From Bacillota bacterium (GTDB lineage: Bacteria > Bacillota > Clostridia > Christensenellales > UBA1242), in assembly GCA_009780625.1 (NCBI GenBank), contig WQZR01000003.1, positions 1 to 32,600 on the forward strand: DNA of 32,600 nt. Direction: 5' to 3'. The notes under the pieces were generated by a model that searched no databases, had not been told where the DNA came from, and saw only the letters and a list, made by a program, of their open reading frames with translations. The position numbers were made by a program, and so were the translations under genes. Of the stretch, positions 3,762 through 9,886 are shown in pieces (the stretch's first letter is position 1; each line of letters opens with the position of its first letter).

Positions 3762-3777
3762 TGATATAATGGACCTT
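3762..3777 (+). promoter_or_regulatory. Extended -10 promoter, predicted leaderless (MBL gene)
   Basis: TGA-TATAAT (TATAAT 3765-3770), 7 nt, ATG 3778. Confidence 0.6.
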
Positions 3778-4587
3778 ATGAGAGTTGTTAGTCTTGCAAG
3801 TGGAAGCAAAGGGAACTGCTATTTGGTTTCGCACAATCGTGCTCTTGTTTTGCTTGATGTTGGAATTTCTTATAGCACTCTTGAAATTAAGCTTAGAGAT
3901 TTGGGCGAATCTGTTTCTCAAGTGAATGCAATCTTTCTGACACACTGTCACCACGACCATATTAAAGGACTGGAAGTCCTGCTTAAAAAAATGCCACATA
4001 TTGAGGTTTGGGGAAGTGTTGAATGCATTGCAAGTGTAAAAAGAAAACTTCTTGGAAAGATTAGAACTGAAGCTGTTGATTTTAGAATCATTGAAAAAAG
4101 CAGTTTTTATTATAAAGACTTTTTGGTGTCGGCTTTTTTGGTTCCGCATGATGCGAAGGGAACGCTGGGCTTTTCGTTTTGGCTTGATGGAGAAAATAAG
4201 TTTACGTTAATCACAGATGCGGGCTGTATCACAGAAGAAATGAGAACTGCAGCAATGAGTGCAAAACTTTTGTTTATTGAAAGTAACCACTGTAAAACGC
4301 TTATCAAAGAAACAACAAAATATCCAAAGGTGCTTAAGGATAGAATTCTGAGCGATAAGGGGCATCTTTCAAACTGCACATGTGCTGCGTTTTTGGTTGA
4401 GGTTTTAAAAAAGAGAGAAGATAGAGTGACGTTCTGCCTTTGCCATCTTTCAGAAAACACAAACACAAAGAGTGCAGCAATAGATTGCATTATGTTTGAA
4501 CTGGAATCTAGACAGTTTGTGCTGGGTGTTCATTTTATGCTTGAAGTTCTTTGCCAATATGACACCAGCGAAGTTTTTGAAATATAA
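3778..4587 (+). CDS. yycJ: MBL-fold hydrolase, YycJ/WalJ family
   Basis: 'MRVVSLASGSKGNCYLV...VLLDVGISY...AIFLTHCHHDHIKG'. Start 3778 fits the family N-terminus better than 3769. Confidence 0.85.
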   Translation: MRVVSLASGSKGNCYLVSHNRALVLLDVGISYSTLEIKLRDLGESVSQVNAIFLTHCHHDHIKGLEVLLKKMPHIEVWGSVECIASVKRKLLGKIRTEAVDFRIIEKSSFYYKDFLVSAFLVPHDAKGTLGFSFWLDGENKFTLITDAGCITEEMRTAAMSAKLLFIESNHCKTLIKETTKYPKVLKDRILSDKGHLSNCTCAAFLVEVLKKREDRVTFCLCHLSENTNTKSAAIDCIMFELESRQFVLGVHFMLEVLCQYDTSEVFEI

Positions 4588-4594
4588 ATAGATA

Positions 4595-4609
4595 TGTTAT
4601 ACTAACCTT
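4595..4609 (+). promoter_or_regulatory. Extended -10 promoter, predicted leaderless (tmk-like gene)
   Basis: TGT-TATACT (TATACT 4598-4603), 6 nt, ATG 4610. Confidence 0.6.
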
Positions 4610-5284
4610 ATGGAAAAGAAAGAAGAAGAAAAAAAAGTTGGCTATCTTATAGCCATTGAATGTATTGATAACAGATTTAGCAAAAGAGTTGGCGAAATGC
4701 TTAACGAGTTTTTTAGAAAGAATAAGCAAAAGTCATCGGTTGCGTTTTTGGCAGGAAAGACTGAATTTGAAGAGCAGCCAAAACAAAAAGACAAAAATAA
4801 AAAAGGTGGCAACAATCAACAAAAGCCACAAGCGGTTGAAAAGCCACTGGGTGAGTTTAATGACAAGCTGAGCCCAATTGCGGTGTATTTAGACTATGGT
4901 GCAAAAGTGGCTGAACTTATTAAAGAAAAAATCAATCCTAAGTTAGACGAAGGTGAAATTGTAATCACACACAACTTTGCAGTTGGCGCAGAAGCGTTTT
5001 TCACATATGGGCTTGGACTTGACTCGAAGAAAGTTAAGAACATAAACAAATGTATATACTCTAAACTTAGACCGGACTATACAATTTTCCTAGACATCTT
5101 TGCAGAACACATTGTTAAAGATGCAAGGCTTAAAGAAAAAATGGAGCTTACATATCTAGGCTATAAGAGGCTTTTAAGAAAAGACAGAAAGCTTTTAATT
5201 GTAAATGCTGAAAACAAAGAAGACGTCATCCTTCTGCACATTGTTGAAAGCCTGACAAAGCGTGGAATTATTGCTAGTGAATAG
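4610..5284 (+). CDS. Thymidylate kinase-like protein lacking recognisable catalytic motifs (putative pseudokinase)
   Basis: 'KVAELIKEKINPKLDEGEIVITHNFAVGAEAFFTYGLGLDSKKVKNINKCIYSKLRPDYTIFLDI' aligns with the Tmk segment around the DRY/DRF motif; lies directly upstream of holB-ricT. P-loop position reads 'IECIDNRFSKR'; DR(Y/F) position reads 'HNF'. Confidence 0.65.
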   Translation: MEKKEEEKKVGYLIAIECIDNRFSKRVGEMLNEFFRKNKQKSSVAFLAGKTEFEEQPKQKDKNKKGGNNQQKPQAVEKPLGEFNDKLSPIAVYLDYGAKVAELIKEKINPKLDEGEIVITHNFAVGAEAFFTYGLGLDSKKVKNINKCIYSKLRPDYTIFLDIFAEHIVKDARLKEKMELTYLGYKRLLRKDRKLLIVNAENKEDVILLHIVESLTKRGIIASE

Positions 5285-6086
5285 TCTTCCTTCACAAACA
5301 GAAGAATATAAAAATGCAAAGAAACAGATTGAATCGCTGAAGTTTAGCCATGCCCATTTGATTGAAAGCGATGTTGAAACAGCAAGGGCATATCTTGGAA
5401 TGGTTCTTAAACTTATAATCGAAAACAGCGAGCGTGTTTCGAACCTCGAACACCCAGATATTCAAATATATGCGGGGGAGAGTTTTCTTACAAAAGATTT
5501 AGAACAAATGCTAGACCTTGTTCCGCTTAAGCCAATCGAAGCACCGGCTAAGGCTTTTATTATTTTTGCAAATGGGCTTAGTGCGGTTGTTCAGAACAAA
5601 CTTCTAAAAACTTTGGAAGAGCCACCACAGAACACATATATCTTTATTGTTGCAAAAAACAAGGAGGGGTTCTTGCCAACTGTTCTTTCTAGAACCAACA
5701 AAATCAGTCTTGGAAGAACATATAGTTCTAGCGCAGAAACTGAAATGTTTACTTATGTTATAAGCACGCTTTCAAACATGCAAAAGAGCAGCCAAGTTTT
5801 GAAGTATTCTAGAAACTTTGGAAAACTTAACAAAGACAAACTTGGTGAGATTTTAGATATGTTTGAACAAGTTTTTGAAAGGCTTATTTCTCTACGAGGG
5901 GCAAATGCAACAGACAAGCAATATGCTGCTGTTTTAAAAGACGAAGGGTTTTCGCTTAATGCATTGGCTAAGTGTGTGGTTAGCCTAAAGAAAGCAAAAG
6001 ACCAAAATATGTATAACGTAAACCCAAATGGGGTTTATGATTTATTCTTACTTTCTATACTTGAAAACAAATTTTTAGCACGTTAA
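5262..6086 (+). CDS. holB: DNA polymerase III delta' subunit
   Basis: 'FIIFANGLSAVVQNKLLKTLEEPPQNTYIFIVAKNKEGFLPTVLSRTNKISL'. GTG start at 5262 or 5277, both overlapping the upstream gene. Confidence 0.8.
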   Translation: MELLLVNSLPSQTEEYKNAKKQIESLKFSHAHLIESDVETARAYLGMVLKLIIENSERVSNLEHPDIQIYAGESFLTKDLEQMLDLVPLKPIEAPAKAFIIFANGLSAVVQNKLLKTLEEPPQNTYIFIVAKNKEGFLPTVLSRTNKISLGRTYSSSAETEMFTYVISTLSNMQKSSQVLKYSRNFGKLNKDKLGEILDMFEQVFERLISLRGANATDKQYAAVLKDEGFSLNALAKCVVSLKKAKDQNMYNVNPNGVYDLFLLSILENKFLAR

Positions 6087-6102: not shown

Positions 6103-7128
6103 ATGAATTATTTAGTTAAAACAAAATCATATATAGATGGCGAATTGTTTATGGGAGACAACTTTGAAGTTGGAAACAAAGTTGTTGTTGATTTAAACTC
6201 GGCACAATTTTTGGGCGAGGTTGCTTCAAAAGCAAAAGGCAGAGCAGACAAAACAAACTTTGTTGTGAGAGTTGCAACAAAGGACGATATTGCAATAGAT
6301 AGCGAAAACCAAGAAAGAGCAAAAGAAAGTCTTAAACGTGCAAAAACAATTGCGCTAAACTTCAAGTTGGATTTAAAGCTTCTAGATGCAGAATATTCTT
6401 TGGACCAGTCTAAACTGATTATCACTTTCATAAGTGAAGAGAGGGTGGATTTTAGGGCATACGTAAAAGACCTTGCACAAAAACTTAAAACAAGAATTGA
6501 GTTAAAACAAATTGGTGCAAGAGACGAAGTTTCGCTTGTTGGAGCACTTGGTGCATGCGGACAGATTTGTTGCTGCGTTAGAAAGTTTGGAAAAATGGGT
6601 GCATGCAACAATGGTTGCAGAGCAGGTGAGTGTGGGGCAACATGCGGCAAGTTTCCAGCAGTTTCTGTCAAAATGGCAAAAACGCAAGGGCTTAGCCTTG
6701 CGCCAAATAAAATCAACGGAATGTGTGGAAGGCTTCTTTGCTGCCTTGCGTATGAACAAGAAGACTATGACATCACACTTGCCAAAATGCCAAAACTAAA
6801 CACACAAATAAAAACACCAGATGGCGTTGGGACAGTTGCGTCTGTAAACGCTGTTAAGGAAACGGTTTCTGTAAAATTTTGGAACGAAGATTCGAAGTTG
6901 ACCCGTTTTGAAGAATATACTCTAGAAGATTTGGGAGCCCCAATGCCTGCACCTCAGGCGTCTGAAGCCCCAAAAAAACCAGAGGAAAATTCTCAAAATA
7001 AAAAGCATAACTTCTTTAATAAAAACAAGGATAGAAAAAACCAGCAACCTCAGAAACAAAATAATAACAAAGAGAACAAGAAACCGAAAATATTTAATAT
7101 TCGAATTGGACCTAAAAAAGAGGGATAA
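6103..7128 (+). CDS. ricT: PSP1-domain protein, RicT/YaaT family, with Cys-rich insertion and Asn/Lys-rich tail
   Basis: 'GACGQICCC...FPAVSVKMAKTQGLSLAPNKINGMCGRLLCCLAYEQEDY' is the PSP1/RicT signature. Confidence 0.88.
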   Translation: MNYLVKTKSYIDGELFMGDNFEVGNKVVVDLNSAQFLGEVASKAKGRADKTNFVVRVATKDDIAIDSENQERAKESLKRAKTIALNFKLDLKLLDAEYSLDQSKLIITFISEERVDFRAYVKDLAQKLKTRIELKQIGARDEVSLVGALGACGQICCCVRKFGKMGACNNGCRAGECGATCGKFPAVSVKMAKTQGLSLAPNKINGMCGRLLCCLAYEQEDYDITLAKMPKLNTQIKTPDGVGTVASVNAVKETVSVKFWNEDSKLTRFEEYTLEDLGAPMPAPQASEAPKKPEENSQNKKHNFFNKNKDRKNQQPQKQNNNKENKKPKIFNIRIGPKKEG

Positions 7129-9833: not shown

Positions 9834-9886
9834 TATATAACAAAGTAATATAAAAATTGGCAAACTCTTTGTTTTAGAATGGCAGC

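Follow-up and report, generated by a model that had tools for sequence, protein, structure and literature searches.

Gene Organization at the Locus

The window, i.e., the whole 32,600-nucleotide stretch of DNA that was analyzed, is one entire contig of a Bacillota bacterium draft genome (0.97 Mb, 84%-complete). On its forward strand, an open reading frame (ORF) of 224 amino acids (aa), with an ATG start and zero internal stops, follows a gene for an MBL-fold hydrolase and is succeeded by holB and ricT. This order corresponds to the slot of tmk, the gene for thymidylate kinase (dTMP kinase, Tmk), which belongs to a small cluster of genes retained in many Firmicutes. The ORF is hereafter referred to as pseudo-Tmk, and the features assigned at the locus are as follows:

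3769–4587, + strand: MBL-fold hydrolase (profile match), upstream of pseudo-Tmk with a gap of 22 nt
4598–4603, + strand: TATACT with a TG 1 nt upstream, separated from the ATG by exactly 6 nt and read as a putative −10 element of a leaderless transcript (pattern)
4610–5284, + strand: predicted inactive thymidylate kinase homolog, 224 aa (PF02223, family Tmk HMM, AF2 and Foldseek to Tmk structures)
4658–4687, + strand: former P-loop, EGxDGxGKST replaced by ECIDNRFSKR (alignment)
4745–4759, + strand: former REPGG, now FLAGK with a single Gly kept (alignment)
4769–4846, + strand: charged low-complexity insert EEQPKQKDKNKKGGNNQQKPQAVEKP, 26 aa, after the second strand, predicted to be disordered with low pLDDT (sequence, AF2)
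4970–4978, + strand: former DR(F/Y), now HNF (alignment)
5105–5125, + strand: approximate site of the LID deletion, with the conserved LID Arg absent (alignment)
5262–6086, + strand: holB, DNA polymerase III delta′ (PF13177), starting inside the pseudo-Tmk ORF
6103–7128, + strand: ricT, PSP1/RicT (NF041131), with its own TATACT-N6-ATG

The TATACT-N6-ATG arrangement of pseudo-Tmk is identical at ricT (6091), and TAGAAT-N6-ATG precedes tatD (8099) and the ORF at 9875. In 5 of the 24 ORFs of the window (4598, 6091, 8099, 9875, and 782 on the − strand), the start codon is preceded at exactly 6 nt by a TANNNT hexamer, this spacing being the commonest among the ORFs. The pattern suggests that leaderless transcription is common in this lineage and that the hexamers are putative promoters. 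The holB gene starts at GTG 5262 or at GTG 5277, the latter with an 8-nt overlap (GTGAATAG) of the same length as that in the relative G005, and neither a Shine-Dalgarno sequence nor TATACT was found upstream of its start. Because holB begins inside the ORF without such a signal, the pseudo-Tmk frame may also deliver ribosomes to holB.

Relationship to Thymidylate Kinase

The taxonomic family was sampled with 309 genomes, mostly of approximately 1 Mb, among which the genome of the window is the sole representative of its genus. An active-looking type-1 Tmk occupies the slot in the family members G005, G015, G016, G024, G032, and G301, and several slot Tmks of the family overlap holB by a few bases; likewise, pseudo-Tmk lies directly upstream of holB, overlaps it, and precedes ricT. 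In most genera of the family, the slot tmk has been lost and a second type of Tmk, with an intact P-loop and DRY and nearest to NCBIfam NF005923, is encoded elsewhere. In the relative G003, the slot before holB (contig C14; L035:3725–4396) is occupied by a type-2 Tmk whose P-loop is intact, so that the old locus houses the second enzyme type.

Homology to Tmk was detected at three levels. The Pfam profile PF02223 (Thymidylate_kin) matches the ORF over profile positions 48–178 with an E-value of 6.8e-10 and 39.4 bits, above the curated cut-off of 27 bits, and an HMM built from six family Tmks matches it with an E-value of 1.3e-16. TIGR00041 gives an E-value of 4.7e-9 and 36.2 bits, below its equivalog cut-off of 83.25 bits. 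Furthermore, alignment with the family Tmks shows that pseudo-Tmk is colinear with the active slot Tmks from the first strand onward. A frameshift masking an intact P-loop was considered and rejected, because the P-loop strand and helix of the active enzymes align colinearly, and in frame, with the N-terminus of pseudo-Tmk.

The active site is extensively altered. P-loop residues G18, G21, G23, K24, and T26 are all replaced, the LID region corresponds to a 14-column alignment gap, and the dTMP-binding Arg, Tyr, and Gln are likewise gone. Across 46 active Tmks, 40 columns are conserved at ≥85%; pseudo-Tmk retains 13 of these, whereas an active Tmk typically retains 38. The loss is uneven: 1 of 18 ligand or catalytic columns is kept versus 12 of 22 other conserved columns (Fisher p 0.0017, on categories that were assigned by hand from general features of Tmk structures). 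A preliminary description, made from the DNA letters, had placed the ORF in the tmk-holB-ricT slot, matched its central segment to Tmk, and quoted CIDNRFSKR for the P-loop, HNF for DR(Y/F), and the charged insert; the slot assignment and the match agree with the present results, and the motifs and insert were found exactly as quoted. Its further claim that the catalytic apparatus is missing is borne out by the loss of 17 of the 18 conserved ligand or catalytic residues. Judged by its sequence, the ORF is thus a Tmk by descent and not a dTMP kinase by motif. As a separate observation, the insert resembles the K/N/Q-rich C-terminal tail of RicT in composition (summed K, N, Q, E, P, and D of 0.86 for the tail versus 0.85 for the insert).

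Structure prediction by AlphaFold2 (AF2) with an alignment of the 46 active Tmks yielded the Tmk fold with a disordered insert (pLDDT 86, pTM 0.81), and the best 50 matches of this model in the PDB, searched with Foldseek, were all thymidylate kinases. The comparison proposed in the preliminary description thus returned the Tmk fold when a Tmk alignment was supplied, and no confident model without an alignment (pLDDT 38); the predicted fold is weak evidence, since the alignment steers the model toward it.

Retention of the Reading Frame

Neutral decay was simulated to the same mean identity as that of pseudo-Tmk (23%) in 460 runs; the simulated sequences acquired 7.7 stops on average and the frame was open in 0 of 460. 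The fraction of conserved columns kept is 0.33 in pseudo-Tmk versus 0.46 under the simulation, i.e., more were lost than neutrality predicts. Retention of the hydrophobic core showed no excess over the simulation and was dropped as evidence for folding, because neutral decay yields the same value. In-frame synonymous codon usage equals that of the neighboring genes in both halves of the ORF. Measured against the other members of the order, pseudo-Tmk has a distance of 3.98 changes per site versus a family mean of 2.25, whereas that of RicT from the same genome is 2.40 versus 2.09, an ordinary distance despite a fairly long end branch. The pseudo-Tmk gene is strongly accelerated on its own account, unlike its neighbor RicT. 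Taken together, the frame that is open against the simulation, the normal codon usage, and the separate acceleration indicate that the frame was held open while the constraint on Tmk was lifted.

These results speak against simple junk and for maintenance of the frame as coding sequence. The description of the protein as conserved-looking, by contrast, finds no support: no comparable degenerate slot Tmk occurs elsewhere among the 309 family genomes, and approximately 70 family slots that were examined contain either an active-looking Tmk or no Tmk. Pseudo-Tmk is real but solitary, and conservation cannot be claimed for it. No close relative suitable for dN/dS is present in the genus, and two scans of genome contigs, queried with the slot protein and RicT, gave no match; selection is not measurable by dN/dS, since no second species carries pseudo-Tmk.

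Source of dTMP Kinase Activity

The 84%-complete genome contains no PF02223 match besides pseudo-Tmk; within it, searches with a type-2 Tmk profile and for a T4-type dNMPK (PF21448) found nothing and a search for dNK (PF01712) gave no clear match. The second tmk anticipated in the preliminary description was thus not recognized, a result that fits either a missing piece of the genome or an unrecognized enzyme. Those weak P-loop matches in the genome that were inspected look like cytidylate kinase, uridine kinase, Ffh, a guanylate-kinase-like protein, and similar proteins, as named by eye. A ThyX-like gene is present. ThyX-like proteins of approximately 400 aa were also noted (G000:C22:5732–6166, G313:C34:34842–36023, and in G020, G111, and G170), several showing two distinct Thy1 matches within a single reading frame, a possible tandem ThyX.

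No PF02223 match at all was found in 43 of the 309 family genomes (G026, G123, G180, G247, and G277 among them), or in 24 of the 190 good-quality ones; completeness reaches 98% in G026 and G123. The readable slots of these genomes contain no Tmk, and T4-type dNMPK was absent from those tested. Given that approximately 16% of the genome is missing and that 43 family members are in a like situation, no conclusion is drawn on where dTMP kinase is encoded. Another dTMP kinase, not yet recognized, may exist in the family. That approximately one-eighth of the genomes of a family with reduced genomes lack a recognizable dTMP kinase implies that either an undiscovered enzyme or an unusual route of supply may operate there.

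Interpretation and Alternative Explanations

On balance, we favor, with moderate confidence, an inactive but retained protein of the Tmk fold, encoded by a vertically inherited type-1 tmk and acting without catalysis. The gene would be the bacterial type-1 tmk inherited vertically in this lineage, whose dTMP kinase duty was first taken over or became dispensable; ATP, dTMP, and LID functions would then have been lost while a translated, folded Tmk-like protein remained. dTDP would be made by another enzyme, unrecognized or unassembled. As for the structural or regulatory role suggested in the preliminary description, we infer that the fold was kept and that a binding or scaffold subunit is the most likely form of it, because Tmks are homodimers and the gene is still overlapped with holB. 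A narrower version, in which pseudo-Tmk is a dedicated non-catalytic partner of the clamp loader (DNA polymerase III delta′) or of an undiscovered dTMP kinase, appears improbable.

The main rival, which we regard as unlikely though well short of negligible, is a leader cistron: the protein would be functionless, and the frame would be kept open solely so that ribosomes reach holB. Since the holB start lies within the ORF and lacks a dedicated initiation signal, stops and frameshifts would be selected against while amino acids drift, which would account for an open frame together with accelerated divergence. The overlap at either GTG and the lack of a Shine-Dalgarno sequence or TATACT before holB agree with such an arrangement. 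However, most relatives dropped tmk and start holB elsewhere, and the far better preservation of non-ligand than of ligand columns is not expected from drift alone.

Early decay of a young pseudogene, by chance still open in a fast-evolving lineage, would suit a singleton in a family where most genera lost the slot tmk, and the RicT end branch of this genome is fairly long, although RicT lies at an ordinary distance from the order. The divergence is nevertheless too great for a neutral frame to remain open (0/460) and codon usage is normal, so we hold this explanation to be improbable. Less probable still is a dTMP kinase that remains active through a remodeled catalytic site. It draws on the expectation that dTMP kinase, normally an essential enzyme, should be encoded and on pseudo-Tmk being the sole PF02223 match; against it stand the loss of the P-loop glycines and lysine, DR, EPGG, the LID Arg, and the dTMP-binding Arg, Tyr, and Gln, the incompleteness of the genome (84%), and the 43 of 309 family genomes that likewise lack a recognizable Tmk.

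Comparison with Known Systems

Among known proteins, the closest is the bacterial dTMP kinase itself (Tmk; TIGR00041/PF02223), with which pseudo-Tmk shares gene position, colinear sequence, the fold predicted from a Tmk alignment, and the overlap with holB. It differs from that enzyme in lacking the nucleotide-binding and catalytic motifs, in the deletion of the LID, in the 26-aa charged insert, and in scoring under the equivalog cut-off. Maintenance of such a motif-free Tmk would imply that this enzyme and its locus can be separated without loss of the protein. Among the papers searched, none names both thymidylate kinase and pseudoenzyme.

In Pseudomonas putida KT2440, a 65-kb island splits tmk, and its duty passes to a T4-type dNMPK, PP_1964 (PMC10653934). 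There, too, dTMP kinase is no longer provided by the tmk gene in its original position, as would be the case for pseudo-Tmk. Unlike the split gene, however, the pseudo-Tmk ORF is intact and its inactivity is predicted from the sequence; the search of its genome for a T4-type dNMPK was negative. A further parallel is NDUFA10, a subunit of complex I that contains a deoxynucleoside kinase domain, keeps its P-loop region, and binds dGTP (PMC9226000). The likeness, at the level of weak profile matches, would lie in the recruitment of a nucleotide-kinase fold as a subunit of another complex; NDUFA10 differs in being eukaryotic, in belonging to a different kinase family, and in retaining the P-loop region. 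More generally, pseudo-Tmk resembles the pseudoenzymes (reviewed in PMC10211241) as an enzyme homolog without catalytic motifs, and it seems to represent a clear but so far solitary case of an essential enzyme that was turned into a non-enzyme and kept as a protein.
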